Shown here: one piece after another, positions 1,878 to 22,486 of the stretch
How positions within the stretch are numbered: position 1 is the first letter of the stretch
Layout: each line of letters starts with the position of its first letter
From: a bacterium
Lineage (GTDB): Bacteria > JAMCPX01
Length of the DNA: 64,000 bases
Direction of reading: 5' to 3'
Assembly: GCA_021787665.1 (NCBI GenBank)
Contig: JAJYLN010000005.1
Location: forward strand, 45,971-109,970
Program-made: the position numbers and the translations under genes
Notes under the pieces: generated by a model
Told to the model about the DNA's origin: nothing
What the model saw: the letters and a program-made list of their open reading frames with translations, nothing else
Database searches by the model: none

Positions 1878-2812
1878 AGATTGCTTTCATGTTCCCGGGA
1901 CAGGGCTCCCAGTTCGTGGGCATGGGCAGAGAGCTCTACGGGAAATATGAGATCGTCAGGGAATATTACGACCGGGCATCGAAGAGACTGGACACGGACC
2001 TTACGCGCATCATGTTCGATGGCAGCAGGGAAGAGCTCACCCTTACCTATAATGCACAGCCGGCGATACTGACGATGAGCGCCGCCGTGGCCAGATTGGT
2101 GAGCTCGACCTACGGGATAGAGCCGGATCTGTGCATGGGACACAGCGTGGGCGAATACAGCGCTCTCACTGCAGCATCAGTCATGGCGTTCGAGGACGCA
2201 GTCTACGCCGTGAGGAAGCGGGGTGAAGCCATGCAGGCTGCGGTACGGCCCGGGGAAGGCACGATGGCAGCGGTCATAGGGATGGACGAGCCCCTGCTAC
2301 AAGACCTCCTCCTCCAGGCGGGGGCAGAGACCGGCCGCACCGTCGAGATCGCGAACTACAACAGCCCCGGGCAGATCGTCATCTCCGGCCACACGATAGC
2401 CGTGGACCGTGCGATGGACCTGCTCCGGGCAAAGGGCGCGCGACTCGTGAAGAAGCTGGAGGTCAGTGCACCATTTCATTCGAGCCTGATGCAGCCGGCC
2501 GTTCCGGTCATGGAAGAAGTCCTGCACGGCATGGCATTCGGGAAGACACGCTACCCGGTCGTGTTCAACGTCGATGCCGCAGTTCACCGAGACGAAAGCG
2601 AGATCCCGGGCCTGCTCCTGAGACAGCTCGTGAGTCCTGTCAGATGGACCGACACGATCACCTTTGCACTGCAGCAGGGCGTCGACACCTTCATTGAACT
2701 GGGTCCCGGCAGGGTCCTGACCGGGCTTGTCAAGAGGATACGTGGCTCTGCCCGGCTATTCAACGTCGAAAGTCCCTCGACGCTCGAGCAGCTCAGCGTA
2801 CTCGTTCAATGA
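1874..2812 (+). CDS. fabD: Malonyl-CoA:ACP transacylase FabD
   Basis: 312 aa. FabD loads malonyl groups onto ACP for type II fatty-acid elongation. The nucleophile elbow GHSVGE places the catalytic serine at S91; the second catalytic residue is the histidine in SAPFHSSLM. The PGQGSQFVGMG oxyanion region is present near the N-terminus. It overlaps plsX by 4 bases. Its stop overlaps the ATG of the fabG remnant in an ATGA junction, so the operon structure predates the fabG damage. Confidence 0.97.
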   Translation: MKIAFMFPGQGSQFVGMGRELYGKYEIVREYYDRASKRLDTDLTRIMFDGSREELTLTYNAQPAILTMSAAVARLVSSTYGIEPDLCMGHSVGEYSALTAASVMAFEDAVYAVRKRGEAMQAAVRPGEGTMAAVIGMDEPLLQDLLLQAGAETGRTVEIANYNSPGQIVISGHTIAVDRAMDLLRAKGARLVKKLEVSAPFHSSLMQPAVPVMEEVLHGMAFGKTRYPVVFNVDAAVHRDESEIPGLLLRQLVSPVRWTDTITFALQQGVDTFIELGPGRVLTGLVKRIRGSARLFNVESPSTLEQLSVLVQ

Positions 2813-2993
2813 CCATGGCCTACGATGTGTTGAACAGAATCGCTTTCATAACCGGCGGCCAACCGGGCATCGGCTTTTAAAAAACTGTTGCAAAAGAGAT
2901 AGGTAGCAGGGATATACTGTGGTCTGCTTCCTCCTGTCCGAGGAGGCTGGCTACGACAAGGGCACGGCGATAGGGGTAAACGGCGTGCATTGA
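2809..2993 (+). pseudogene. fabG: Remnant of fabG (3-oxoacyl-ACP reductase), internally deleted
   Basis: Both ends of a FabG-like reductase are readable but the middle is gone. From the ATG at 2809 the frame gives a FabG-type N-terminus with the Rossmann glycine motif TGGQPGIG, then a stop at 2878-2880 with AKEI-like codons beyond it. In another frame, 2922-2993 reads a typical FabG C-terminus (FLLSEEAGYDKGTAIGVNGVH) ending at TGA. A normal gene is about 740 bp, so roughly 560 bp are missing and the two parts are out of frame. The position between fabD and acpP is exactly where fabG normally lies. A working reductase must be supplied elsewhere. Confidence 0.85.
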
Positions 2994-3060
2994 GACAAGG
3001 CCGGACAGGCGCCGGGGAGGTCCCGGTGTGAAACACCAATAAACCAAAGGAGGAGAACGT

Positions 3061-3300
3061 ATGGCACTCGAAAAGAAAGTACGTGAGATTATCGCAGACA
3101 GGCTGAAGCTCGATGTCGAGCAGGTCCAGCCCGGCTCGAGGTTCATAGAGGACCTGGGGGCGGATTCGCTGGACATCGTGGAGATGATCATGCAGATGGA
3201 GGAGGACTTCGGCATAACGATACCAGACGAGGACGCGGAAAAGATCAAGACGGTCGGTGACGCCATTTCGTATATCAAGTCACAGGGTGTGAATGAGTAA
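3061..3300 (+). CDS. acpP: Acyl carrier protein
   Basis: 79 aa, acidic, standard ACP length. The phosphopantetheine attachment motif DSLD places the modified serine at S36, within [14 protein letters not shown] strong site (AAAGGAGGAG) precedes the start. The gene follows the fabG remnant and overlaps fabF by 8 bases, so acpP and fabF are probably translationally coupled. The product is the cytoplasmic acyl carrier for the FabD, FabF and PlsX steps encoded around it. Confidence 0.97.
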
Positions 3301-4540
3301 AAGAAGGGTCGTCATTACCGGGCTCGGTACGGTCACCCCGCTGGGGAACAGCGTGGAGGAGACGTGGCGGGCACTCCTCAGCGGGAGGTCCGGCATCGCT
3401 CCTATCACGAGGTTCGACCCGTCGCTCACCGACGTCCGGATAGCGGGCGAGGTAAAGGACTTCGACGCGGAGTCGTACGTCGAAAAGCGGGACGTCAAGA
3501 AGATGTCGCTCTTTATCCAGTACGCGATGGCCGCGGCGGTCATGTCGTTCAAGGACAGCGGCCTGTCCGAGACGGACATAGACGGGGAGAAGATGGGCGT
3601 CATCATCGGGAGCGGGATGGGCGGCCTGGAGAGCATAGAGTACTATCACGATGCACTGCTGAAAGGCGGAAGCCGCAAGATCTCCCCCTTTTTCATCCCC
3701 ATGACGATCGGCAACATGGCATCAGGGCACGTGGCCATCAGGTTCGGAGCGAGGGGGCCAAACCTCTGTATCACGACGGCGTGCTCCTCCGGGAGCCACT
3801 CCATCGGCGAGGCTTACCGGTACATCCAGCACGACCTTGCTGACATCGTCATCGCGGGCGGAGCGGAGTCGACCATCACCCCTCTCGCGTTCGCGGGCTT
3901 CTCGAACATGAAGGCACTATCCTCCTCGCACAACGACGATCCGAAGGGGGCGTCCCGGCCCTTCGACCTCGACCGGGACGGCTTTGTGATGGGCGAGGGT
4001 GCCGGGGTACTCATCCTGGAATCCTACGAGCACGCGAAGGCACGGGGTGCGAGAATGTATGCGGAGGTCATAGGGTACGGAGCAAACGGGGACGCATACC
4101 ATATAACCACACCTTCGCAGGACGGCAGAGGGGCGGCCCAGTGTATGCGCAGGGCGATCGCGGATGCGGCCATCCGGCCCGAGGACGTCGGCTACATCAA
4201 CGCACACGGCACGTCCACCAAGTACAATGACCAGATAGAGACCCTTGCGATAAAGGCCGTATTCGGCGAGCACGCCGGCCGGCTCGTGGTGAGCTCCACC
4301 AAAGGGGCGACCGGACACCTGCTCGGTGCAGCGGGCGCCATCGAGGCTATATTCAGCGTTCTCGCCCTCTACCATGACACCCTACCGCCCACCATCAATT
4401 ATACGACGCCCGACCCGGCATGCGACCTGGACTACGCCCCGAACGCACCTGTCAAGAGGGAAGTGGCGGTGGCCCTGTCGAACTCGTTCGGTTTCGGGGG
4501 CACGAACGCAGTGCTCGTTTTCAGAAGGATGGTCGTATGA
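3293..4540 (+). CDS. fabF: 3-oxoacyl-ACP synthase II (FabF)
   Basis: 415 aa. This condensing enzyme elongates acyl-ACP with malonyl-ACP. The Cys-His-His triad is visible: C164 in [11 protein letters not shown]305 in [11 protein letters not shown] and H342 in [12 protein letters not shown]. Lys337 (STKGATG) and the GFGGTNA C-terminal motif are also present, and the length is normal. It overlaps acpP upstream, and its stop overlaps the rpiB start (4537). It is the only ketoacyl synthase visible in the window. Confidence 0.97.
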
Positions 4541-4989
4541 AGATCGCGATCGCGTCCGACCACGCCGGCTTCGGGTTGAAGGGAGAGATACTTAAGTTCC
4601 TCGAGAGCAGGAACATCCGGACCATCGACCTCGGCACCTACTCGGAGGAGTCCGTGGACTACCCGGACTACGCAGAGAAGGTAGCGGACGCCCTCACGGA
4701 CGGACGGGCAGACAAGGGCATCCTCGTCTGCGGCACCGGCATCGGCATGTCCGTCTCCGCGAACAAGAAGAAGGGCATCGTCGCGGCGCTCATCTACAGC
4801 GACTACACAGCAGAGATGGCGGCGAAGCACAACCGGGCCAACGTGATCACGCTCGGCGCAAGAACCATGCAAAAAGAAGACGCGATCCGGTATATCGATA
4901 TATGGATGAACACACCGTTCGAAGGCGGCAGGCACGAGAAAAGGGTCAGGAAGGTCCTGGACATAGAGAAGGAACAGAAGGAGAAATAA
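4537..4989 (+). CDS. rpiB: Ribose-5-phosphate isomerase B
   Basis: 150 aa. It interconverts ribose-5-phosphate and ribulose-5-phosphate (pentose phosphate pathway). RpiB/LacA hallmarks are ASDHAGFGLK at the N-terminus, the phosphate-binding GTGIGMSVSANK segment with the catalytic cysteine in LVCGTG, and HNRANVITLGAR. I chose the ATG at 4537, which overlaps the fabF stop; the longer upstream frame lies inside fabF and lacks family similarity. glyA begins 3 bases downstream, so the gene is in the same operon. Confidence 0.95.
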   Translation: MKIAIASDHAGFGLKGEILKFLESRNIRTIDLGTYSEESVDYPDYAEKVADALTDGRADKGILVCGTGIGMSVSANKKKGIVAALIYSDYTAEMAAKHNRANVITLGARTMQKEDAIRYIDIWMNTPFEGGRHEKRVRKVLDIEKEQKEK

Positions 4990-4992
4990 GCT

Positions 4993-6237
4993 ATGGACAG
5001 TATACGGCAGACCGACAGAGAGGTCTACGATGCGATCGCCGCCGAGGTCAGGAGGCAGCAGACCACGCTCGAGCTCATAGCCTCGGAGAACATCGTGAGC
5101 ACGGCCGTGCTCCAGGCGATGGGAAGCGTGATGACCAACAAGTATGCGGAAGGATACCCGGGCAAGCGGTACTACGGCGGATGCGAGAACATGGACACGG
5201 TCGAGCAGCTCGCGATAGACAGGGCAAAGGCGCTGTTCTCAGCGGACTATGTGAACGTCCAGCCACACTCAGGGGCCCAGGCGAACATGGCCGTCTACTT
5301 CGCGTTCCTCAACTACGGCGACACCATCATGGGTATGAACCTTGCACACGGCGGCCACCTCACGCACGGCAGCCCGGTGAACTTCTCCGGGAAGTTCTAC
5401 AAGGTGGTACCGTACGGCGTACGCCGGGACACAAAAACCATCGACTACGACGAGCTCGAGAAGCTCGCGTCGGAACACAGGCCCAGGCTCATCATCGCCG
5501 GCGCCTCCGCATATCCGAGGACGATCGACTTCGGGCGCTTCTCGAAGATCGCGAAGGCGTGCGGCGCATACCTTATGGTCGATATGGCGCACATCGCCGG
5601 CCTGGTCGCAGCCGGACTGCACCCGAGCCCGGTGCCCTGGTCCGACTTCGTCACGACGACGACCCATAAGACGCTGCGGGGCCCGAGGGGCGGAGTCGTC
5701 ATGGGCAAGGCGCCGTACGAGAAGCAGCTTAAATCACAAGTGTTCCCGGGCATGCAGGGCGGCCCGCTCATGCACATCATAGCGGCAAAGGCGGTCGCTT
5801 TCAAAGAGGCGCTGTCCGACTCTTTCAATCAGTACCAGCGACAGATCATCCTGAACGCGGCACGGCTTGCCAGGGAGATGCAGGACGCCGGGTTCGACAT
5901 CGTCTCCGGTGGAACGGACACACACCTGTTCCTCGTGGACCTCTCACCGAAGGGCATCACCGGCAAGGACGCGGAGAAGGTACTGGAGCGGGCAGGCATA
6001 ACCGTGAATAAGAACGCGATACCGTTCGACGAGAAGCCACCGACAGTAACGAGCGGTCTGAGAATCGGGACTCCGGCGATCACGACGAGGGGCATGGGCG
6101 AGAAGGAGATGGCGCTCATCGCCGGCTACATCGACGACGCGCTCAAGCACCGGGACAACGAGACAGCGCTCGGCGAGATAAAGCTGAAGGTAGTCAAGCT
6201 GTGCAACGATTTCCCGATTTACCAGGGGATGGCCTGA
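4993..6237 (+). CDS. glyA: Serine hydroxymethyltransferase
   Basis: 414 aa. This PLP enzyme converts serine and tetrahydrofolate to glycine and 5,10-methylene-THF. The PLP lysine is K226 in [14 protein letters not shown]. The substrate-loop signature [10 protein letters not shown] and the [15 protein letters not shown] segment are intact, and the length is typical. It is packed between rpiB and nrdR, the arrangement common in Deltaproteobacteria-like genomes. The AAGGAG-like site lies in the rpiB 3' end. Confidence 0.97.
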
Positions 6238-6249
6238 GCAGCTCACACC

Positions 6250-6750
6250 ATGAAATGTCCGGAGTGCGGCCATAGTGATACCTCAGTGATCGACTCGCGC
6301 ATGGCGCGGGAGGGCCTCGCCATACGCAGGCGCAGGGAGTGCCCCACCTGTAAAAAGCGCTTTACCACGTACGAGCAGATAGAAGACGCTACGCTGATGG
6401 TCATCAAGAAGGATGGGAGGCGTGAGCCGTTCGACAGGCAGAAGATAAAATCCGGCCTCCTGAAGGCATGCGAAAAGAGGCCCATCAGCATGGACACGAT
6501 AGAGAAAGCCGTCAACCGCATAGCCCAGACCTATGAAGGCTCTCCGGACAAAGAGATACCCACGAGCGAGATAGGCGAAGCACTTATGACGGAGCTCAAG
6601 GAGCTCGACAAGGTCGCCTATGTACGGTTCGCTTCAGTCTATCGCGAATTCAAGGACATCAGCGAGTTCATGGACGAACTCAAGGGACTGCTAAAAATAA
6701 AGCTCGCACCCCAGCAGTCCTCTGTCCGGAAAAAGCCCCGGAAGCACTGA
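6250..6750 (+). CDS. nrdR: Transcriptional repressor NrdR
   Basis: 166 aa. NrdR represses ribonucleotide reductase genes in response to ATP/dATP. The N-terminal zinc ribbon has C3, C6, C31 and C34, followed by an ATP-cone beginning near residue 49 (KKDGRREPFDRQKIKSGL). It starts 12 bases after glyA and is the last gene of this operon. Its stop directly abuts the stop of the convergent peroxiredoxin gene, with no room for a dedicated terminator. No reductase gene is in the window. Confidence 0.95.
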   Translation: MKCPECGHSDTSVIDSRMAREGLAIRRRRECPTCKKRFTTYEQIEDATLMVIKKDGRREPFDRQKIKSGLLKACEKRPISMDTIEKAVNRIAQTYEGSPDKEIPTSEIGEALMTELKELDKVAYVRFASVYREFKDISEFMDELKGLLKIKLAPQQSSVRKKPRKH

Positions 6751-7215
6751 TTACTTTTTGCCCTCGAGCACGCGGATAATTTCCGTGATGTCCGGGAGCT
6801 CTCCGATCGGATAGATCTTGAAAAACAATATCTTCCCGTTCTCGTCCACGATGACATTCGCCCTCTCGGAAAAGCCGTCGCCCTCCCGGAAGATCCCGTA
6901 CTTTTTCGCGATGTCCCCGTGTATCCAGAAGTCCGCGAGAAGACGGGTGTCCTTTATGCCCAGGGACTTCGCCCATTCTTTCTTGGACGGCGATGTATCG
7001 ATGCTTACGCCGAGGGCCACGGTGTTGAGCCGGTCGAATGCCGCCTTGTTCGTCTCGAGCGATCCCATCTGCCTGGCACACACGGATGTCCACGCGAGCG
7101 GGTGGAACGAGAGGAGGACCTTCTTGCCCCTGAAGTCCGACAGCCGCACGTCCTTCCCGTCCTGATCTTTGACCTTGAAGTCCGGTGCAAGTACACCTAC
7201 ATTGAGTCCAGCCAT
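6751..7215 (-). CDS. One-Cys peroxiredoxin (AhpC/TSA family)
   Basis: 154 aa, thioredoxin fold, probably cytoplasmic. The peroxidatic cysteine is C46 in the motif HPLAWTSVC, matching the PxxxTxxC pattern; the usual first proline is shifted and the surrounding AWTSVC is slightly unusual. No other cysteine exists in the protein, so there is no resolving cysteine and an external thiol donor is needed. GGAGGAT precedes the start. It is convergent with nrdR and divergent from gatB. The peroxide substrate is not predictable. Confidence 0.9.
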   Translation of the reverse strand: MAGLNVGVLAPDFKVKDQDGKDVRLSDFRGKKVLLSFHPLAWTSVCARQMGSLETNKAAFDRLNTVALGVSIDTSPSKKEWAKSLGIKDTRLLADFWIHGDIAKKYGIFREGDGFSERANVIVDENGKILFFKIYPIGELPDITEIIRVLEGKK

Positions 7216-7478
7216 ACCGTATCCTCCTTTTACGAAAAGGTACTCAGCACGGCGCGTTTTTTCAATACCCTTGTACCGCGCAGAGATCCGGCCCCGTTTC
7301 CACCCTTCTGAAGATTCGGGGCGGGAACACGAGACACCTCTGCAGAGCCGGTTGGCAAAGCAAGGTCACGAGCCTGACTCAGGATTTATGAAAAAGTCTT
7401 ATGTCATTTCCATTGCTTTAACCTGAAAGTTGTGTCATAGCTCACGATTGGATTAAAACGGAGTGCTCGGGGAGAGCG
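7216..7478. other. Divergent intergenic region, peroxiredoxin / gatB
   Basis: 263 bases separate the divergent peroxiredoxin and gatB starts, so both promoters should lie here. I see AT-rich stretches around 7385-7425 and 7440-7460 but no clear pair of consensus hexamers at 16-18 base spacing, no tRNA and no riboswitch that I recognise. Confidence 0.4.
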
Positions 7479-8915
7479 ATGGAATACGAAGCTGTCATAG
7501 GGCTCGAGGTACACGCCCAGCTCAAGACGCAGACCAAGACGTTCTGCGGGTGCGCGACGACGTTCGCACGGGAGCCCAACATCAACGTCTGTCCGGTGTG
7601 CATCGGCATGCCCGGCGTGCTGCCCGTACTCAACAGGAACGTGGTGGTGTACGCGTGTATGCTCGCGATGGCGGTACGCGGAGAGATCTCCAGGCGCAGC
7701 GTCTTTGCGAGAAAGAACTACTTCTACCCTGATCTGCCGAAAGGCTACCAGATATCGCAGTACGAACTGCCCGTGAACAGGGGCGGTATGATACACATCC
7801 AGCTCGACGGCGCGGACCGGGACATCCGGCTCAACCGCATCCATATCGAGGAGGACGCCGGCAAGCTCATGCACAACCAGGATGGGACGAGCTACGTCGA
7901 CTTCAATCGCTCCGGGATCCCTCTGCTCGAAATCGTGTCCGAGCCGGACCTGTCCACGCCGGACGAGGCGATTGCCTATCTCAAAAAACTGAGGACGATA
8001 CTGCTGTACCTCGGGGTGTGCGACGGCAACATGGAAGAGGGCTCCCTGCGATGCGATGCAAACGTCTCGGTACGGCCCCGGGGCGAGGCTCGGCTCGGGG
8101 TAAAGACGGAGCTCAAGAACATGAACTCGTTCAGGTTCATCCATAAAGCGCTGGACTACGAGATACAGCGGCAGACCGAGGTCCTCGGCCGGGGCGGCAC
8201 GATCAGTCAGGAGACGAGGCTGTGGGACGAATCATCCGGTACGACGCGGTCCATGCGATCGAAGGAGGAGGCCCACGACTACCGCTATTTCCCTGAGCCT
8301 GACCTCCTCACGCTCGAGGTCAGCGACGATCTCCTGGAAGAGGCACGCCGGGGCGTGCCGGAGCTGCCGGACGCAAAGGCGGGCCGCTTCACCGCGGAGT
8401 ACGGTCTTCCTGCGTACGACGCGGAGGTTCTGACCGCATCGAGGGACCTCGCCGGCTACTTCGAGACCGTGGTAGGGTCTTTCGACCGGCCCAAGGCCGT
8501 CAGCAACTGGATCATGAGCGAGATGCTGAGGTTCATAAAGGACATCGACACCGAAGTAAAGGACTTCCGGGTCACCCCGGACAGAACGGCGAAACTCCTC
8601 GGGCTGATCGACGACGGGACGATAAGCGGCAAGATCGCTAAAGGTGTGTACGAACAGATGGTATCGACCGGCAAAGAGCCGGATGCACTCATAAAAGAGC
8701 TCGGTCTCGAGCAGATCTCCAGCGAGTCCTCCCTGCGGGAAGTCATAGCACCCATACTCGAACAAAACAGAAAAGAGGTCGGGCAATACAAAGCCGGCAA
8801 GGAAAAGCTGTTCGGCTTCTTCGTGGGACAGGTAATGAAGGCAACGGCCGGGAAGGCAAACCCGTCCGTGGTAAACGATTTATTGAAAAAAATGTTAAGA
8901 GAGGAAAAAACATGA
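7479..8915 (+). CDS. gatB: Asp-tRNA(Asn)/Glu-tRNA(Gln) amidotransferase subunit B
   Basis: 478 aa, full length. GatB is the kinase/transamidase scaffold subunit that, with GatA and GatC, converts misacylated Glu-tRNA(Gln) or Asp-tRNA(Asn). The N-terminal YEAVIGLEVHAQLKTQTK and CGCATTF motif and the LPKGYQISQYE segment are diagnostic; the C-terminal tail domain (GatB/YqeY) ends in KANPSVVNDLLKK. gatA and gatC are not in the window. It overlaps the next gene by 4 bases (ATGA). Confidence 0.96.
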   Translation: MEYEAVIGLEVHAQLKTQTKTFCGCATTFAREPNINVCPVCIGMPGVLPVLNRNVVVYACMLAMAVRGEISRRSVFARKNYFYPDLPKGYQISQYELPVNRGGMIHIQLDGADRDIRLNRIHIEEDAGKLMHNQDGTSYVDFNRSGIPLLEIVSEPDLSTPDEAIAYLKKLRTILLYLGVCDGNMEEGSLRCDANVSVRPRGEARLGVKTELKNMNSFRFIHKALDYEIQRQTEVLGRGGTISQETRLWDESSGTTRSMRSKEEAHDYRYFPEPDLLTLEVSDDLLEEARRGVPELPDAKAGRFTAEYGLPAYDAEVLTASRDLAGYFETVVGSFDRPKAVSNWIMSEMLRFIKDIDTEVKDFRVTPDRTAKLLGLIDDGTISGKIAKGVYEQMVSTGKEPDALIKELGLEQISSESSLREVIAPILEQNRKEVGQYKAGKEKLFGFFVGQVMKATAGKANPSVVNDLLKKMLREEKT

Positions 8916-11620
8916 AGCTCAAAAAGGCTATCATTTACTCAGGGGCAGCACTGGTTCTGATCGTTGCCATCCTGCTTGTGCTCCCCTTCGTGATCAATCT
9001 GGACAGGTACATAGGCAAGATAACGGCACCCGTAAGCAAGGCCATCGGCAGGCAGGTCTCCATCAAGCACATCAGGCTGACCATACTGACCGGACTCGGC
9101 GTCGAGCTGAAGGGGGTCACGGTCGCAGAAAAGGCCCCGGCGAAGAGGCCCTTCGTGCACGTGGATGATATTGATGTCGGGGTCAAACTGCTCCCTCTGC
9201 TGAAAAAGGAGATAGACATAAGCAGGGTGATACTGCTCAGGCCGGACGTTCACATCGTGCGGTACGAGAACGGGACCTACAACTTCTCCGATCTCCTGAA
9301 GACCGCACCCGCAACCACCCACCGGGCGCAGACAAAGAAGGCGGCCACGGGCATACCGGCAGGCTTCTCTCTTGACAGACTTGCCCTGTCGCACGGTACG
9401 ATCGATATCTCTTCCTTCCAGCACAAAAGAGAGCACGATTACCGTATAAGCGACATCAACCTGGAGGTAAACGACTTCAACGCCAGCAGCCCCTTCACCA
9501 TGGCACTCGGCGTTCACTTCGCCAGTCTCAAAGAAGCCAGCCTGAACGTACAAGGCAAGGTCGGTCCCCTCGGCCAGCAGCCGTCCCTGGAGACGCTCCC
9601 GATCGACATGGCGGTCTCCATGAAACATATAGACATACCGTACATGCTCGCGCTCGCAGGGATCAAGAGCAAGGTGCTCGCTGCCGGTACCCTTGACGTG
9701 CACGAAACACTCAAGTCCTCGTCCGGCACCACGAACATAGACGGCAGGATCGGCTTCTCCGGGCTGACGCTGACCAACGGCACGATTGAGCCCTTTGCAC
9801 TGACAAACAGACTGCAAGTGCACCAGCGACAGAAGCTCCTGTCCATAAAGGACATTACGCTCAGTTCACGGGGCATCGAGCTGGGTCTTCAGGGTGATAT
9901 GAGCATCCCGGGCATGACGATAAACGCCAGTCTCGCTTCCAGGAAGCTGTCCATCGAGGACCTGCTTGCATTCTACAGCCCGCTGAAACAGATGCTGCCG
10001 GCCGCAGTATCGATAAGCGGCAACGTGGGCGTCACAACGGAGGTCCATGACGACAAAACCGGGATCCGGGCGCGTGGTGCCGTCGACCTCCAGGACGCGA
10101 CGGTACGGTACAAGGACCTGTTCGAGAAGCCGGCATCGACGCCGCTACGGCTGTCCTACGCTCTCTCCAAGCGGGGCAACCTCGTGTCTCTGAGCGACCT
10201 GAAGCTCGTGATCGCCAGCATCGCCCTGTCTGCGGCCGGGACCGTCTCGATGGCGGGCGACATGCCGGGCAACATCAGGATCAGCACCGGCAGCGTGGAC
10301 CTGCAGTCTTTGCAGGGCATCGTACCCCTGATAAAGACCTACAGTGCCTCCGGCAGCCTTACCCTGTCGGCAAACGCGAAGGGGCCGCTGAAAGAGCCCG
10401 GGAAGCTCGCCATTACCGGGGGGATCAGGGTAAACAAGGTGTCCGCCCGGATAGCATCGCTGCCCAAACCCGTGAAGTCCCTTGCCATGGACGCCTCATT
10501 CACACGCAACAGCGTTGCGCTCAAGTCGATGAGCATACAGATCGGACACTCGACAATCGACGCCAGCGGGAACATCGCGGACTTTGCAGCCCCCCGGGGC
10601 AGGATCTCCATCAGCTCGCCATATCTCGATGTCGATGAGCTGACCCCCGCATCGAAGCAGGGACAGGGGACACCCGCAAAACAGCCGGCACAGACAAAGC
10701 CCGGCGAGCAGCCTTCCATCCTCGACCGAGCCGACATCACCCTGTTTGCACGTGTCCAGAAAGGCATCATAAAGAAGGCTCCCTTCGCGGACCTCGTCGC
10801 TCTGGCGAGGCTCGCAAAAGGCACGATCGTCCTGGACAGGTTCAACATCAGGGCATTCGACGGCAGCATTGCCGCGAACGGTACCGTGGGCATGAAGGGG
10901 ACCAAGCCCTATGACCTCCATCTCAAAACCGTGGGTCTGAACCTCGGTACTATGCTCAACACCTTTACCTCGTACAAAGACATCATGACCGGCCGGCTGG
11001 GGACCACCATCGCACTTAACGGCAACACGGCCGACTTGAAACACAGCGTGTGCGGGAACGGCGTGCTCACCGTCACGAACGGCGAGATAAAGACCTTCTC
11101 GGTCCTGTCGCAGCTCCTGGGCATCGCGAGTCTCGCGGGCGCCGGCAACGGGCAAACGACGAAATTTAATGCCCTCAAGCTAACGGCGGTCATCGATCAC
11201 GGGAAGGTCTCCTCGAAAGATCTGCAGATGTCGAGCACTGATCTCGACGTCATGGCCAACGGCTATTTCGATACGGATGGCAACCTGAACTATCACGGCA
11301 TCGGCACCCTCTCGCGGACTCTGTCGAACGGCGTAGGCGGCACGGCCGGGCAGCTCATCAAGAACGGACACGGCCAGGTAGAGGTACCGTTCATACTGAC
11401 CGGAGAGGTCCGAAGGCCCTCGTTCAGTCTCGACCAGGCGGTGTTTCAGCAGAGGCTCCGGGAGAACGCAAAGAAACAGGTCATCCGGCAGTTGAACAAC
11501 CAGCTCAACAACGAACTCAAGTCGAACCAGCAGCTCAAGCAGTTGAACCAGGGCCAGAACAAGAACATCCAGAACCTGCAGCAGCAGGGCAGGAAGGCCC
11601 TGCAGAACCTGTTCAGATGA
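8912..11620 (+). CDS. AsmA-family inner-membrane-anchored protein
   Basis: 902 aa. One N-terminal membrane helix (about residues 7-29) is followed by a long, mostly beta periplasmic region with AsmA features: AsmA-type N-terminus VINLDRYIGKITAPVSKAIGR and a C-terminal AsmA_2-like segment with repeated short beta strands. The last 45 residues are unusually Q/N-rich (QLNNQLNNELKSNQQLKQ) and probably helical. AsmA-like proteins help lipid traffic or assembly at the outer membrane. It overlaps gatB and mtnA by 4 bases each, an odd operon. The exact substrate is unknown. Confidence 0.85.
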   Translation: MKLKKAIIYSGAALVLIVAILLVLPFVINLDRYIGKITAPVSKAIGRQVSIKHIRLTILTGLGVELKGVTVAEKAPAKRPFVHVDDIDVGVKLLPLLKKEIDISRVILLRPDVHIVRYENGTYNFSDLLKTAPATTHRAQTKKAATGIPAGFSLDRLALSHGTIDISSFQHKREHDYRISDINLEVNDFNASSPFTMALGVHFASLKEASLNVQGKVGPLGQQPSLETLPIDMAVSMKHIDIPYMLALAGIKSKVLAAGTLDVHETLKSSSGTTNIDGRIGFSGLTLTNGTIEPFALTNRLQVHQRQKLLSIKDITLSSRGIELGLQGDMSIPGMTINASLASRKLSIEDLLAFYSPLKQMLPAAVSISGNVGVTTEVHDDKTGIRARGAVDLQDATVRYKDLFEKPASTPLRLSYALSKRGNLVSLSDLKLVIASIALSAAGTVSMAGDMPGNIRISTGSVDLQSLQGIVPLIKTYSASGSLTLSANAKGPLKEPGKLAITGGIRVNKVSARIASLPKPVKSLAMDASFTRNSVALKSMSIQIGHSTIDASGNIADFAAPRGRISISSPYLDVDELTPASKQGQGTPAKQPAQTKPGEQPSILDRADITLFARVQKGIIKKAPFADLVALARLAKGTIVLDRFNIRAFDGSIAANGTVGMKGTKPYDLHLKTVGLNLGTMLNTFTSYKDIMTGRLGTTIALNGNTADLKHSVCGNGVLTVTNGEIKTFSVLSQLLGIASLAGAGNGQTTKFNALKLTAVIDHGKVSSKDLQMSSTDLDVMANGYFDTDGNLNYHGIGTLSRTLSNGVGGTAGQLIKNGHGQVEVPFILTGEVRRPSFSLDQAVFQQRLRENAKKQVIRQLNNQLNNELKSNQQLKQLNQGQNKNIQNLQQQGRKALQNLFR

Positions 11621-12666
11621 AGGCGTCGTTCTTCACAATCCTGCCGAGGGAAGATCATATTCTGATCCTTGACCAGAGGCTACTGCCCGGTAAGAAGCAC
11701 TACCTCAGGGTGAGGACCTATAGAGACGCTCACGACGCGATACGGGACATGGCAGTACGGGGTGCGCCGGCGATCGGCGTTACGGCGGCGTTCGGCCTGT
11801 GGCTTGCGGCAAGGGCCGCCAGGACGAAGGACCGCAGGACATACAAGGCAGAGCTCGAGAGGGCCGGGCGCTACCTCGTCAGTTCGCGGCCAACCGCCCA
11901 CAATCTGCCGTGGGCAATTCGGAGGATGCTCCGGGTAGCGAAGGCAGAGCAGTCATCTCCCCTTTCAATAACAGAAAGGCTGTACACCGAGGCGCTGCAC
12001 ATATTCCATGAGGACATCGAGGCGAACAAGCGGATGGGCGACCTCGGCGCGAAACTCATACCGGACGGTGCCACCGTCCTCACGCACTGCAACGCCGGCA
12101 CCCTTGCGACTGCCGGCTACGGCACAGCCCTCGGGGTTCTGCGCTCGGCGAAGAGCGCGGGCAAGCGGCTCAAAGTCTTCGTCGACGAGACGAGGCCGTT
12201 CCTGCAGGGCGCACGACTGACCGCGTGGGAACTCAACGAGGACGGGTTCGACGTCACCCTGATCACCGACAGCATGGCAGGCTGGATGATGAAGCAGGAC
12301 CTCATCGACGCATGCATCGTCGGTGCCGACCGTATCGCGCTGAACGGGGACGTCGCGAACAAGATTGGCACCTACAGCGTCGCTGTGCTCGCGCGCGTGC
12401 ACAGCATTCCGTTCTATGTCGCCGCTCCGTCGTCGACCTTCGATGCGGGCATATCGTCCGGCAGGGACATTGTCATAGAGGAACGGGCACACAAGGAGGT
12501 CATCACCCTATCGGACAGGGTAATAGCCCCGGCAGGAATAAAGGTGCGCAACCCTGCCTTCGACGTGACGCCGGCCACGTATATCACCGCGATAATAACG
12601 GAGAAGGGCATCATCCATGCCCCCTACGCAAGGGCCATACGGGGCCTCCTGAAACAGACAACGTGA
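11617..12666 (+). CDS. mtnA: S-methyl-5-thioribose-1-phosphate isomerase
   Basis: 349 aa. It isomerises methylthioribose-1-phosphate to the ribulose form in methionine salvage. Family motifs are all present: RGAPAIG, THCNAGTLATAGYGTALG with the catalytic cysteine, DETRPFLQGARLTAWEL, and GADRIALNGDVANKIGTY with the catalytic aspartate. It lies in an overlapping string asmA-like / mtnA / DUF218. No other salvage gene (mtnB, mtnD, mtnP) is near, so it may serve a partial pathway. An eIF2B-like or ribose-1,5-bisphosphate isomerase role is less likely given the motifs. Confidence 0.95.
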   Translation: MKASFFTILPREDHILILDQRLLPGKKHYLRVRTYRDAHDAIRDMAVRGAPAIGVTAAFGLWLAARAARTKDRRTYKAELERAGRYLVSSRPTAHNLPWAIRRMLRVAKAEQSSPLSITERLYTEALHIFHEDIEANKRMGDLGAKLIPDGATVLTHCNAGTLATAGYGTALGVLRSAKSAGKRLKVFVDETRPFLQGARLTAWELNEDGFDVTLITDSMAGWMMKQDLIDACIVGADRIALNGDVANKIGTYSVAVLARVHSIPFYVAAPSSTFDAGISSGRDIVIEERAHKEVITLSDRVIAPAGIKVRNPAFDVTPATYITAIITEKGIIHAPYARAIRGLLKQTT

Positions 12667-13253
12667 AGCGCGTCTACATCGTTACGCTCATCGGAACGCT
12701 GTTGCTGATCGTGGGCCTTTTCACTGCATACCCGCTGCTGGAGCGGGAGCTCTACTTGGGCGATACACCCCACAAAGCCAACGCCATCATCGTGCTGAGC
12801 GGCGACGCCGAGCCGGACTACCTGCGGACCAGGAAGGCCGTCGAGCTATACAAGCAAGGGTATGCCCGCTACATCATATTTACGGGCTACGGAGCTGCCG
12901 GAGACAGCGGAGAGTTCCTGTCGAAGATAGCTGCCCACCACGGCATACCCATGACCGCGATTATCATAGAGCCCTACGCGAGGAGCACCTACGAGAATTT
13001 CTTCTTTTCAAGACCCCTCGTTCTGGGACACGGGTTCAGGTCCATACTGATCGTGACGTCCCCGTACCACCAGCTCAGGGCATACCTCGTCGCGAAGAAG
13101 ATCTTCAGGGACACGGGCGTACGGATCTACAACTGCGCATCCCACAGGCCCTACACACTCGCGGCCGGCATCGGGACCAGCATCCGGGAGGCGCGGTTCG
13201 TTTTTATGGAATATATAAAGTTTTTCGGCTATTACCTGCTCGGAAGGATATAA
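12663..13253 (+). CDS. DUF218/YdcF-like membrane-anchored protein
   Basis: 196 aa from a GTG start at 12663, which overlaps the mtnA stop by 4 bases; a longer frame upstream runs antiparallel in reading phase through mtnA and is not coding. One N-terminal membrane helix (residues 5-22) precedes the DUF218 domain, with ANAIIVLSGDAE at the start, an EPYARSTYENFFFS segment and ILIVTSPYHQLRAYL. ElyC/SanA/YdcF relatives affect envelope or peptidoglycan processes. Substrate unknown. Confidence 0.85.
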   Translation: MKRVYIVTLIGTLLLIVGLFTAYPLLERELYLGDTPHKANAIIVLSGDAEPDYLRTRKAVELYKQGYARYIIFTGYGAAGDSGEFLSKIAAHHGIPMTAIIIEPYARSTYENFFFSRPLVLGHGFRSILIVTSPYHQLRAYLVAKKIFRDTGVRIYNCASHRPYTLAAGIGTSIREARFVFMEYIKFFGYYLLGRI

Positions 13254-13270
13254 AAGGAAGGAGCGATGTT

Positions 13271-14395
13271 ATGATAAAGCAATTAGACCTGTCCGCGCAC
13301 GATAGCGGACTACGCGAGGAGATCCTGCACAAGGTTCAGCAGGTCTTCGAAACCCAGCAGTTCGTACTCGGGTGCTTCGTGGATGAATTCGAACGGGCGT
13401 GCGAGGCATACCTCGACGTCAGGCATGCCGTGGCAGTTGCATCGGGATCGGACGCGCTGTACCTTTCCCTCATGGCGATGGGAATCAAAAGGGGGGACAG
13501 GGTGATAACGACGCCGTTCACCTTTTTTGCGACCGTATCGGCCATAACGCGACTCGGTGCCTTCCCGGTGTTCGTCGATATAGAGCCGGACACCTTCAAC
13601 ATAGCCGGCAAGGGTATCGAACAGGCGCTGAAGAGACACCGGGGCATAAAGGCTATTCTGCCGGTACATCTCTACGGCAGGAGCGCGGACATGGAGGCCA
13701 TAACCGGACTCGCCAAGGAGTACGGCGTGCGTGTCGTAGAGGACGCGGCGCAGGCCTTCGGAGCACGCTGTGTTCTGGATCATGGATTCAGGAAGGCAGG
13801 GACGGTCGGAGACGCCGGGTGCTTCTCTTTCTACCCGACGAAGAACCTCGGGGCAGCAGGCGACGCCGGTATGGTGGTCACGAACGACGACAGGATTGCC
13901 GGGCTGCTTCGCATGCTGCGGGTACATGGGTCCCCGGAGAGGTACCTGCACACACACCCGGGCATCAACAGCAGGATGGACGGGCTGCAGGCTGCGGTGC
14001 TGTCCGTAAAGCTCGGCCACATAGAACGGTGGAACCACACGAGGATGGAGCTCGCGAGGAGGTACACGGAGATGTTCAGGGACAGGGGACTGGACCGTGT
14101 CATAACCCTCCCCGAGGTACCGGAAGATGCGACCCACATATTTCACCAGTACACGATACGGGTAAGGGACAGGGACACTCTTAGGGAGGCCCTCAGAAAG
14201 GACGGCATCGGCACGGAGGTCTACTACCCCATCCCGCTCCACCTCCAGCCGGTCTTCAGATACTTGAAGTACAGGAAGGGCAGCTTCAGACAGGCCGAGG
14301 TCGCCGCACAGCAGGTGTTGAGCCTTCCTCTGTACCCGGAGCTATCGGAAGACCAGCAAAGGGAAATCGTGGACGCGCTACAGCGTCATCTTTAA
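13271..14395 (+). CDS. DegT/DnrJ/EryC1 family sugar aminotransferase
   Basis: 374 aa PLP-dependent enzyme that typically aminates a keto-sugar nucleotide for cell-surface polysaccharide. The PLP lysine is K191 in SFYPTKNLGAAGDAG; PLP-phosphate contacts VASGSDAL and VEDAAQAFGA are present, and the C-terminal TEVYYPIPLHLQPVF motif is typical. GGAAGGAG precedes the start 17 bases after the DUF218 gene. Length is normal. The sugar cannot be named; WbpE/PglE-like enzymes are the nearest type. It may feed the LPS or exopolysaccharide genes further on. Confidence 0.9.
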   Translation: MIKQLDLSAHDSGLREEILHKVQQVFETQQFVLGCFVDEFERACEAYLDVRHAVAVASGSDALYLSLMAMGIKRGDRVITTPFTFFATVSAITRLGAFPVFVDIEPDTFNIAGKGIEQALKRHRGIKAILPVHLYGRSADMEAITGLAKEYGVRVVEDAAQAFGARCVLDHGFRKAGTVGDAGCFSFYPTKNLGAAGDAGMVVTNDDRIAGLLRMLRVHGSPERYLHTHPGINSRMDGLQAAVLSVKLGHIERWNHTRMELARRYTEMFRDRGLDRVITLPEVPEDATHIFHQYTIRVRDRDTLREALRKDGIGTEVYYPIPLHLQPVFRYLKYRKGSFRQAEVAAQQVLSLPLYPELSEDQQREIVDALQRHL

Positions 14396-14412
14396 GGGCT
14401 GGACCGTGGCGG

Positions 14413-15207
14413 ATGCACACACAAACCATAGACCTGTACGGATGCAGGATCGCCTTCAGAGTTTCGCAGGGTAGCGGCACCTGCCTGCTGTTCCTCCACG
14501 GGGCCGGCTCTGCCGGCGCGGTATGGCAGGCTCAAGGGGACTTCTTTCAGACGCTTGCGCCCGTGATCATACCCGATCTCCCGGGGCATGGGGACTCGCC
14601 CGGCAGGGGCCGCACCTCCATTGACGCGTATGCAGGCATCGTGACCGAGCTTATGGCGGCCCTCGGGAAGGGGCCCTTCGTCGTGATCGGACATTCGATG
14701 GGCGGCGCCATAGCACAAACGATAGCCCTTGCGCACCCTGAAATGATCATGGGCCTCGTGCTCATGGGGACCGGGGCCAGGCTGCGGGTGACCGGGCAGA
14801 TCTTCACGGCCATCGAAGCAGATTACGACCAGTATCTGGACCTTGCCAGCAGCTTTTCAGTCCCGGCTACGGCAGGGCAGCCCATCGTATCACGGCTCAG
14901 AGAGCTCTTTTCGAAGACGGAAAAAGCCGTGGTCTCCGGCGATTTTAGGGCGTGCGATGACTTCGACATCATGGACAGGGTCGCATCCATACGTACGAGG
15001 ACCCTGATCATCAACGGCGACAGCGACATGATGACGCCCCTGAAATACGCGCAGTACCTCCATGAGCAGATCCCCGGCTCACGCCTGCACGTCATGGCCG
15101 GCACGGGACACATGGCCATGATCGAGAGGCCGGAGGAGGTCAACGCCGCCATCAAGGAGTTCCTGTTTACTTGCTTCCGGACTCGTTGTGACACATACTA
15201 TGGTTGA
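14413..15207 (+). CDS. Alpha/beta-fold hydrolase
   Basis: 264 aa. The fold is shown by the oxyanion-hole motif LFLHGAGS, the nucleophile elbow GHSMGG (S95), the acid residue near INGDSDMMTP and the histidine in MAGTGHMAMIERP. No signal peptide is seen, so it is cytoplasmic. It starts 17 bases after the aminotransferase and precedes a GNAT gene. Members of this group include esterases, haloperoxidase-like enzymes and C-C hydrolases; nothing here identifies the substrate. Confidence 0.85.
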   Translation: MHTQTIDLYGCRIAFRVSQGSGTCLLFLHGAGSAGAVWQAQGDFFQTLAPVIIPDLPGHGDSPGRGRTSIDAYAGIVTELMAALGKGPFVVIGHSMGGAIAQTIALAHPEMIMGLVLMGTGARLRVTGQIFTAIEADYDQYLDLASSFSVPATAGQPIVSRLRELFSKTEKAVVSGDFRACDDFDIMDRVASIRTRTLIINGDSDMMTPLKYAQYLHEQIPGSRLHVMAGTGHMAMIERPEEVNAAIKEFLFTCFRTRCDTYYG

Positions 15208-15219
15208 AAGGAGGCTGCC

Positions 15220-15819
15220 ATGAACAAGAACCCTTCAAAGAAGTATGTCCTCAAAGACGGTTCCGAGATAACGATACGAGCAATGGCCAGAAACGATGGA
15301 AGCGCCCTGCATGAATTCTTCAAGCATATCCCGGAAGAAGACAGGCTGTTCCTGAAACACGACGTCGTGGACAAAAAGATTATCGAGCAATGGGCAAAGG
15401 ACCTCGACTACAACAGGGTCCTGCCTTTGCTTGCAATCGATAGCGGGGATCACATCATCGGCGATGCCACTCTCCACACGACGGACTACGGGTGGTCAAG
15501 GCACCTTGGAGAGATTCGCCTCGTGGTGGGGAGGGCGTATCGGGGCAGGGGCGTTGGCTTTGCGTTGTCGAAAGAGATATTCATCAATGCGCTCGAGAGG
15601 GGCCTTCTGAAGATCACTGCGCAGATGGCCGCGGACCAGAAAGGGGCGATCAAGGTTTTCGAGAATCTCGGCTTTACGAGAGAGGCCGTGCTGAAGAACC
15701 AGATCATAGACCTGAAGGGCCAGACGCACGACCTTATCATCATGACGAACGACGTCAGTGAGGCGGTCAAGGCCATGGAGCGATACGAGGCGGAGAACCT
15801 CGTGAAGACCACGGAATAG
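15220..15819 (+). CDS. GNAT-family N-acetyltransferase
   Basis: 199 aa. A single GNAT domain covers most of the protein. The acetyl-CoA-binding loop is the RxxGxG-like YRGRGVGFALSKE segment (about residues 108-120), and the GFTRE segment closes the fold. AAAGGAGGCTGCC gives a strong ribosome-binding site. It follows the hydrolase at 12 bases, so they share a transcript. The acceptor amine is not predictable; the long N-terminal part resembles single-domain acyl-CoA-ligase-linked GNATs only loosely. Confidence 0.83.
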   Translation: MNKNPSKKYVLKDGSEITIRAMARNDGSALHEFFKHIPEEDRLFLKHDVVDKKIIEQWAKDLDYNRVLPLLAIDSGDHIIGDATLHTTDYGWSRHLGEIRLVVGRAYRGRGVGFALSKEIFINALERGLLKITAQMAADQKGAIKVFENLGFTREAVLKNQIIDLKGQTHDLIIMTNDVSEAVKAMERYEAENLVKTTE

Positions 15820-15836
15820 CCGCCCCTTCTTCCCGT

Positions 15837-15870
15837 AAAGCGCTACGTCCTAACCGTAGGACACCGCTTT
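15837..15870 (+). terminator. Hairpin between GNAT gene and apgM
   Basis: AAAGCG pairs with CGCTTT and an inner stem GTCCTA pairs with TAGGAC around an ACCG loop; CTAC and ACAC-type bases bulge between them. GCTTTTCTCC follows, a short T-rich run. It may be a weak terminator or processing site after the 7.5-15.8 kb gene string. Confidence 0.45.
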
Positions 15871-15921
15871 GCTTTTCTCCGGGAATACCGGTATGTAGTT
15901 GACAGGAAGGCAGGACCGGAT

Positions 15922-17124
15922 ATGAAGTACATCGTATTACAGGGCGACGGCATGGCCGACTACCCCCTCGAAAGGCTGGGGGGCCGGACCCCACTCTCGT
16001 ACGCCCGAAAGAAGAACATAGATGAACTTGCGAAGAAGAGCATCGTCGGCATGGTACGCACGATCCCGGCCGGCATGCATCCCGGAAGCGATATCGGCAA
16101 CCTGTCCATATTCGGCTACGACCCTGCACGGTACTACACGGGCAGGGCCCCGATAGAAGCGGCCGGCCAGGGCATAGCGCTGGGCATGGACGACGTCGCG
16201 TGCAGGTGTAACCTCGTCACGCTGGACAAGTCCGCGGGTATGACGCGCATGAAAGACTATAGCGCTGGCCACATCACGACGGAAGAGGCCATCGAGCTTA
16301 TGCGGGCTCTCTCGTCGTCGCTACAGCTGGACGGCTTCAGGCTGTACCCCGGGGTTAGCTACCGGCACCTCATGGTCTGGCAGCACGGCCTCGACCGTAT
16401 ACAGACCTTCCCTCCCCACGATATCGCGGACCAGGACATAGCCGGACACATGCCGGCCGGCGACGGTGCCGACCGGCTGACTTCGCTCATCGAGTCATCG
16501 TGGGATATTCTCGAGGCACACCCGGTAAATATAAAAAGAAAGGCGCTCGGGAAGGCGCCGGCAAACAGCATCTGGCTATGGGGCCTTGGAAAGGCCCTGC
16601 GTATACCGCCGTTCAGGCAGGTGTACGGGCTCTCCGGTGCATGCATATCGGCGGTCGATCTGGTGAGGGGCATCGCGAGGCTTGCCGGCTTCGCTATCGT
16701 CGAGGTGCCGGGGATCACGGGCTGGGTCGACACGAACTACAGCGGCAAGGCAGCGTACGGCGTGACCGCACTGAAGGACCATGACATCGTCTACATCCAC
16801 GTCGAAGCGCCGGACGAGGCTGGGCACAACGGCGACATAGCGCTCAAGGTCAAGGCCATAGAGGATTTCGATGAAAAGGTGGTGGGCGGTGTAAGGGACC
16901 ACCTGCAAGGGGCCGGACCGTACCGGATCCTCATCATGCCGGACCACAGGACGCCGATAGCACGGAAAACGCACACGGAAGAGCCGGTGCCGTTCCTCTT
17001 GTACGATTCGGAGCACGAGGTCAGGAATGCATACCCCTATGATGAGGCCGGCGCGGGGAAAAGCGGCATTTTCATAGAGAACGGTTTCGAGATCATGTCG
17101 ATGCTCCTGAAGGACAGACGGTAG
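15922..17124 (+). CDS. apgM: Cofactor-independent phosphoglycerate mutase, archaeal type
   Basis: 400 aa. ApgM interconverts 3- and 2-phosphoglycerate; it belongs to the alkaline-phosphatase superfamily. The metal ligand D9 (QGDGMADYP), the nucleophile S62 in GSDIGNLSIFGYDP and the metal-binding VEAPDEAGHNGD and MPDHRTP segments are visible, at the expected places. Length matches the roughly 400-aa archaeal/bacterial class rather than the 510-aa GpmI. It starts after a 102-base gap holding a hairpin. Relatives annotated as phosphonopyruvate decarboxylase lack this context. Confidence 0.92.
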   Translation: MKYIVLQGDGMADYPLERLGGRTPLSYARKKNIDELAKKSIVGMVRTIPAGMHPGSDIGNLSIFGYDPARYYTGRAPIEAAGQGIALGMDDVACRCNLVTLDKSAGMTRMKDYSAGHITTEEAIELMRALSSSLQLDGFRLYPGVSYRHLMVWQHGLDRIQTFPPHDIADQDIAGHMPAGDGADRLTSLIESSWDILEAHPVNIKRKALGKAPANSIWLWGLGKALRIPPFRQVYGLSGACISAVDLVRGIARLAGFAIVEVPGITGWVDTNYSGKAAYGVTALKDHDIVYIHVEAPDEAGHNGDIALKVKAIEDFDEKVVGGVRDHLQGAGPYRILIMPDHRTPIARKTHTEEPVPFLLYDSEHEVRNAYPYDEAGAGKSGIFIENGFEIMSMLLKDRR

Positions 17125-17206
17125 ACACAACGGGCGTGCATGGGCCCCTATCTTATTGCAATTTTCCGGTTAGTATGAGCATGTATCCTTCATAAGGAGC
17201 GTACCC

Positions 17207-17848
17207 ATGGAAGAAGAGCTTTTTAAAAGGTTTGGCAAGACGTTCCCGAAGGGCACGATACTGTTCCACGAGGGCGATACCGGCGAGGACATGTACATCA
17301 TCAACACCGGCAAGGTAAAGATCTTCAAGGAGATAGGGGGCACGGAAAAGGTCCTAGCCGTTCTCGGTGTCTCGGACTTCTTCGGCGAGATGTCGCTCCT
17401 CAACAGGAAGCCGCGCTCCGCAAGCGCCGAAGTCGTGGAGGATGCAAAGATACTCGTCATCAATAACAGCACCTTCGACACGATGATACGAAGCAACGCG
17501 GAGATAGCGCTGCGTATCATTCGGATCCTGTCGAAGAGGCTCGATGATGCCGACGTCCAGATAGCCAATCTGATGATAAAGGACTCGAGTCAGAGGGTCC
17601 TCGTGACACTCATCAAGCTGGCGGACGGCGGCACAAAAATAGACACCGGCACGTTCCTCAAGGCAGATACCGATTACCTGGCCATAACGACCGGGCTCGA
17701 AAAGGAGAAGGTGCGGGAGATAGTGGAGCGACTCATGAAGAACAGGCTCATCGAGCAGACGAACAACGGGATCCTGATCCGGAACAAGGACAACCTGAAG
17801 AAGTATCTCGACTACCTGGTCATGAAAGAGCAGTTCGAGGGGATGTGA
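17207..17848 (+). CDS. Crp/Fnr-family transcriptional regulator
   Basis: 213 aa. The N-terminal cyclic-nucleotide-binding domain (residues about 5-120) keeps the phosphate-binding cassette: G60-E61 and R70-S71-A72 within FGEMSLLNRKPRSASAEV, so nucleotide binding is plausible. There are no FNR-type cysteines. A C-terminal winged helix (about 145-200) is present but its recognition helix KEKVREIVERL is divergent. ATAAGGAGCG precedes the start. The next gene, 16 bases on, encodes an MBL protein related to cyclic-nucleotide phosphodiesterases, which supports a cyclic-nucleotide signal. Confidence 0.9.
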   Translation: MEEELFKRFGKTFPKGTILFHEGDTGEDMYIINTGKVKIFKEIGGTEKVLAVLGVSDFFGEMSLLNRKPRSASAEVVEDAKILVINNSTFDTMIRSNAEIALRIIRILSKRLDDADVQIANLMIKDSSQRVLVTLIKLADGGTKIDTGTFLKADTDYLAITTGLEKEKVREIVERLMKNRLIEQTNNGILIRNKDNLKKYLDYLVMKEQFEGM

Positions 17849-20824: not shown

Positions 20825-20884
20825 GTGACTCACCTCCCTTTTGTCCCTCTATACCAGAAAACAAATAAAATGCAAGCAAGGAAG

Positions 20885-20940
20885 GTAGGGGCGTCCCGCC
20901 GGGGTACCCAAGCGGGGCTTTGGTCGCGGGACGCCCCTAC
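20885..20940. repeat. GTAGGGGC palindromic element 1
   Basis: Fifteen-base perfect arms (GTAGGGGCGTCCCGC and its complement) enclose a 26-base centre that is partly complementary. It lies between the barrel gene and the first propeller lipoprotein. It has the same GTAGGGGC...GCCCCTAC ends as the elements at 23894, 23952, 27563, 30365 and 35682. It resembles REP-type intergenic repeats. Confidence 0.85.
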
Positions 20941-20977
20941 GACGCTCCTGTCTTCAAAACATACTATTCCATACTGC

Positions 20978-21006
20978 TTGACAAAGAAAAAAGGATTTTT
21001 TATGAC
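20978..21006 (+). promoter_or_regulatory. Sigma70-type promoter for first propeller lipoprotein
   Basis: TTGACA (20978-20983, perfect -35) and TATGAC (21001-21006) are separated by 17 bases. The start codon at 21083 lies 77 bases further, with AAAGGAGGAG in front. This is one of the best promoter matches in the window and supports a separate transcription unit. Confidence 0.6.
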
Positions 21007-21082
21007 GAGGCTGACTTGCAGTCCTCAATGTAGAATCGGATCACAGAGGGAGCAACTGAATACTCAAACTAAAGGAGGAGCT

Positions 21083-22474: not shown

Positions 22475-22486
22475 AAAGGAGCGGCC

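Follow-up and report, generated by a model that had tools for sequence, protein, structure and literature searches.

In the bacterial genome analysed here (G000), the canonical fabG of an otherwise intact fatty-acid operon has decayed to three short pieces, and the best reading of the site, as known from the assembled sequence, is that it is a genuine pseudogene of the operonic gene. We put at about an even chance the explanation that couples this pseudogene with a paralogue of the ApeQ type on contig 22 (C22), which would most likely be on double duty. The relic occupies positions 2815-2993 of the window (the whole 64,000-nucleotide stretch of DNA analysed), where the gene order is a DUF177-type ORF, rpmF, plsX, fabD, the fabG relic, acpP, fabF, rpiB, glyA and nrdR; the genes were named from the look of their sequence unless relatives had been aligned. 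The features at the site are as follows.

873-1877, + strand: plsX, intact, 334 aa
1874-2812, + strand: fabD (malonyl-CoA:ACP transacylase), intact, 312 aa, 64-72% identity to fabD of the family
2815-2874, + strand: fabG relic, island 1, codons 1-20 (MAYDVLNRIAFITGGQPGIG), nhmmer fabG 1-60, aligned to MAYDFSDKIAFVTGGARGIG of G002
2875-2919, + strand: fabG relic, island 2, codons 167-181 (F-stop-KTVAKEIGSRDIL), nhmmer fabG 492-543
2920-2993, + strand: fabG relic, island 3, codons 224 to stop (VVCFLLSEEAGYDKGTAIGVNGVH, then stop), nhmmer fabG 670-736
2994-3060, + strand: acpP leader with a strong ribosome-binding site (AAAGGAGGA), read from sequence
3061-3300, + strand: acpP (acyl carrier protein), intact, 79 aa
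3293-4540, + strand: fabF (ketoacyl-ACP synthase II), intact, 415 aa

The homology of the pieces to fabG was established with a DNA profile for nhmmer, built from the intact fabG of five relatives and searched against the 64 kb window. Both ends and the middle of the relic gave collinear matches, at 2868-2919 (fabG 492-543, E 4.4e-7), 2919-2985 (fabG 670-736, E 3.8e-4) and 2815-2874 (fabG 1-60, E 0.023), while the matches that followed had E values of 2.1 and 5.6, leaving the three islands alone below E 1. The 248 nt spacer between fabD and acpP thus holds three collinear fabG pieces with a chain score of 38.3 bits, and when the spacer was shuffled 2000 times under a first-order Markov model no positive chain was obtained, which rules out a chance resemblance. 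A tblastn search of the 23-aa N-terminus of the relic against plasmids returned weak SDR matches only. A full fabG of 247-248 aa stands between fabD and acpP in five genomes of the same family (G002, G003, G004, G005 and G006), and its product exceeds the TIGR01830 cut-off in all five; the comparison is limited to these, as the fabD-acpP stretch is not assembled in G001, G007 and G008, and within this scope the relic has so far been found in one genome only. For G001, which belongs to the same genus, the 9 kb around the site had no match in its assembly. The profile and the five relatives together confirmed the original prediction that fabG is reduced to scraps in its own place while fabD, acpP and fabF remain intact. 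Elsewhere in the window, lipoprotein-like ORFs at 20825-23884 and 27616-30354 carry tandem repeats of ~40-47 aa (periods of 120-141 bp, of the 'IAIDASGNVWVAN' type) together with a collagen-like stretch, GPTGATGQQG; parts of this repeat region match many contigs of G001.

When placed on the 747-nt intact gene of the relatives, the islands correspond to nucleotides 1-60, 499-543 and 671-736 plus the end. Islands 1 and 2 are mutually in frame across a deletion of 438 nt (146 codons), while a second deletion of 127 nt shifts island 3 out of frame with respect to them, and 3 nt more are gone near the end of the relic, in island 3. In addition, a nonsense codon, TAA, is found at 2878-2880 (TTT-TAA) in island 2, where the relatives have TCA or ACA. 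The relatives read FSKSVAREMGSRNIL at island 2 and VVCFLLS[DE][DN]AGY[IM]NG...DVNGGMY followed by a stop at island 3. Altogether 568 of the 747 nt are deleted with all the catalytic residues, including the NNAG, Ser and Tyr-Lys parts of the active site, so that no enzyme could arise from the relic even by read-through or frameshifting. The two ends described in the original prediction are indeed fabG, but the relic consists of three islands, the middle one of which begins inside the supposed N-terminus ending in a stop. The homologous start is the ATG at 2815 (MAYD..., as in G002); the ATGA at 2809-2812, two codons upstream and in the same frame, is real sequence, yet the junction with fabD that it was thought to preserve is not ancestral, since in the relatives read there the fabG ATG follows the fabD stop after ~1-3 nt, with no ATGA overlap. 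A 21-codon ORF begins directly after the fabD stop, and a scan of 2700-3120 revealed no promoter-like or terminator-like sites. As compared with canonical FabG (TIGR01830) of plsX-fabD-fabG-acpP-fabF operons, the relic shares position, orientation, start, C-terminal VNG motif and collinear order, but with three quarters deleted, the active site gone, and a stop and a frameshift present, it is not a working FabG.

Broken down by codon position, identity between the fragments and G002 (0.81, 0.84 and 0.42 for positions 1, 2 and 3) was close to that of the intact fabD (0.79, 0.84 and 0.41), indicating that most of the divergence arose under selection. By this rough dating, based on only 57 codons, the loss of fabG would be relatively recent with respect to the split from other genera. 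Among 35 columns that are invariant in the five intact relatives, 8 are altered in the relic; four intact members have 0-2 such changes, and the most distant member has 8 of 43. From this, some relaxed drift appears to have followed the loss.

FabD, AcpP, FabF and PlsX are encoded at this locus and the other steps of fatty-acid synthesis on other contigs, with FabZ on C25, a FabI-like enoyl reductase on C8 (41% identity to E. coli FabI) and two FabH proteins on C2 and C15 that pass the family cut-off. The presence of FabZ and FabI rules out a loss of the whole of fatty-acid synthesis. As originally noted, fabH is absent locally, between plsX and fabD, and the same is true of the relatives, which likewise have fabH elsewhere; a genome-wide loss of fabH is ruled out by the two copies found. 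It follows from a relic next to intact fabD, acpP and fabF that the cell, if it makes fatty acids, must rely on a different ketoacyl-ACP reductase, as had been proposed. In the assembly, which is 92.66% complete and in 35 contigs, eight SDRs match the FabG model. None of the eight exceeded the TIGR01830 cut-off of 297.75 bits, hence no canonical FabG was found elsewhere in this 92.7%-complete assembly, where the closest match to the operonic FabG of the family reached no more than 45%. The best of them, C22:22927-23634 (267 bits), is an ApeQ-type paralogue and not of the FabG4 type that had been suggested as a candidate. Relatives also have counterparts of the SDRs on C3, C20 and C12, which scored 184-222 bits on the 3-oxoacyl-ACP reductase model. 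Among curated families these SDRs fit best to PRK07035, PRK07576 and PRK07791, all general SDR families; they form long branches in the tree, and their neighbours are acyl-CoA dehydrogenase-like and thiolase-like genes (C3) or unrelated genes (C20 and C12).

Comparison within the family showed that the contig-22 protein, listed as 248 aa, is an old, family-wide paralogue of the ApeQ type, as judged from its sequence. Seven of eight relatives have an orthologue with 79-84% identity, among them four of the five that retain the operonic FabG (none was found in the assembly of G002), indicating an inherited paralogue and no new arrival, and in the tree the protein falls in a separate, well-supported clade apart from the operonic FabGs. 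It keeps the catalytic Tyr-Lys, while the lid residue at Leu185 is Leu and not Phe or Tyr (APGLIETEM, as compared with APGYIETDM in the operonic FabGs) and the lid loop is shorter. At the ACP-docking position Arg174 (E. coli Arg172, placed by means of the row of the alignment that we take to be E. coli FabG) it has Leu, with an Arg one residue earlier. Its nearest solved structures by sequence are 6nrp and 7caw/7cax (6nrp and 7caw at 260 bits, as compared with 188 bits for E. coli FabG, 1i01), which are Acinetobacter ApeQ, an aryl-polyene ketoreductase (PMC8041823). The paralogue therefore resembles ApeQ (PDB 7CAW/7CAX/6NRP; PMC8041823) in the lid Leu, the shorter lid loop and sequence proximity among solved structures, while the Leu at the docking position sets it apart. 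Its conserved neighbours are a LolA-like carrier, a DUF3261-like lipoprotein (below the DUF3261 cut-off) and a ketosynthase, which may point to an aryl-polyene gene cluster. The NCBIfam model NF004200 (FabG), on which it scored 321.9 against a cut-off of 273, does not separate the two roles, since the operonic FabG of the family fell below this cut-off (228.7).

Further ketosynthase, ACP and dehydratase-like genes occur elsewhere on C22 and C20. On C22:10000-29999 (L188), positions 4104-17527 encode an MMPL exporter-methyltransferase fusion, a lipid-A-type acyltransferase, two radical SAM proteins and a polysaccharide deacetylase-methyltransferase fusion, followed by the ApeQ-type FabG, LolA, the DUF3261-like protein and the ketosynthase, and this region may be a cluster for aryl polyenes or a related lipid, in a family about which little is known. 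On C20:60000-79132 (L214), at ~8899-14561, a 734-aa ketosynthase-like ORF and phytoene-desaturase-like, aromatic amino-acid ammonia-lyase-like and thioesterase-like ORFs stand near two ACP matches; as judged from the look of the sequences, the arrangement recalls the supply of starters for flexirubin or aryl polyenes. No acceleration in the evolution of the contig-22 FabG was seen after the loss, the neighbouring ketosynthase being similarly diverged in this genome. A few states found in G000 only that match canonical FabG (GITADGL, GQANY) could be ancestral and were not counted as evidence. The enzyme has kept the ApeQ-type Leu and short lid, with no clear adaptive change toward a FabG role.

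Ralstonia solanacearum (PMC4618531), Xanthomonas campestris (PMC5941067) and Enterococcus faecalis (PMC13293336), which have two or three FabG-like genes, also encode a second FabG-like reductase away from the fatty-acid operon, but their housekeeping fabG remains intact and is required for unsupplemented growth, while here it has decayed. Ralstonia FabG2 complements an E. coli fabG(Ts) strain, yet fabG1 is essential in Ralstonia, and FabG has been described as the sole enzyme known to carry out this step (PMC4618531). In X. campestris, FabG2 works mainly from C8 upward and fails at short chains (PMC5941067), while E. faecalis FabG2 and FabG3 are inactive (PMC13293336). In polyene synthesis, ApeQ cannot be replaced by the FabG of A. 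baumannii (PMC8041823), and we found no report in the literature of the reverse swap, that of ApeQ in fatty-acid synthesis. Second FabGs often fail to replace the first, and the precedents cut both ways. When 103 fabD loci from many phyla were inspected by tblastn, fabG was next downstream in 75, while in two, G014 (L055) and G029 (L056), both of other families, acpP-fabF came directly after fabD and the best FabG match lay in another part of the genome; the remaining 26 loci ended too soon or lacked all of these genes close downstream. Thus fabG can be displaced from the operon, and what is less usual is that its debris can still be recognised. In G014 and G029 tblastn detected no fabG relic, and the spacer there is 141-153 nt as compared with 248 nt here. 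Text searches of the open-access literature turned up no description of a fabG pseudogene within an operon that is otherwise intact.

Among the other readings of these data, the one that most nearly competes is that the pseudogene is genuine and a canonical fabG, moved, duplicated or acquired, works from a part of the genome that was not assembled. We consider this unlikely, though the lack of a clear adaptive change in the contig-22 protein makes it a serious rival: the incompleteness and fragmentation of the assembly leave room for it, and the operons of G014 and G029, with their best fabG match on another contig, offer examples of relocation, while nothing in the assembly is closer than 45% to the operonic FabG of the family. 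A lower probability is given to one of the SDRs on C3, C20 or C12 being the working ketoacyl-ACP reductase beside the genuine pseudogene, for although their scores on the 3-oxoacyl-ACP reductase model and their counterparts in relatives fit such a role, their general SDR families, long branches and gene neighbours speak against it.

We judge it equally improbable that the site is an assembly artefact or a local chimera and that fabG is intact in the real population. The agreement between fragments and fabD at codon positions 1 and 2 is compatible with an artefact, but two separate deletions, a stop and a small deletion would be needed within 180 nt, the altered invariant columns exceed those of most intact members, and the ORFs adjoining the relic are intact and free of frameshifts, indicating that the contig is not error-ridden in general. 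The single assembly deletion that had been raised as an alternative is less likely in view of the several independent lesions in three pieces. It is very improbable that the fragments were retained because they serve in some new way, for instance as a short coupled peptide or as the leader of acpP: the 21-codon ORF and the strong ribosome-binding site of acpP would suit it, but the scan of the site revealed no promoter-like or terminator-like element, the fragments match fabG merely as broken pieces, and other genomes have acpP 141-153 nt past fabD with no fabG between them.

In the explanation that we favour, a genuine pseudogene together with double duty of the contig-22 paralogue, fabG has lost three quarters of its length, including the whole active site, to two large internal deletions and a small one, accompanied by a nonsense codon and a frameshift, while the other type II fatty-acid synthesis genes stayed intact. 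That the loss was tolerated is most likely owed to the paralogue, which by an inferred takeover would now reduce 3-ketoacyl-AcpP for membrane lipids in addition to its own polyene-type substrates. That this polyene-pathway (ApeQ-type) ketoreductase is now the sole 3-ketoacyl-ACP reductase of the type II synthase, with the old fabG still recognisable as debris, is a claim we make more tentatively, at somewhat less than an even chance. The kind of event, displacement by a paralogue with a leftover pseudogene, is ordinary, while the gene hit is an unusual one and normally essential. FabG is a proposed drug target, and a natural loss of fabG with the pathway otherwise intact would test whether reductases of secondary metabolism can carry primary fatty-acid synthesis.
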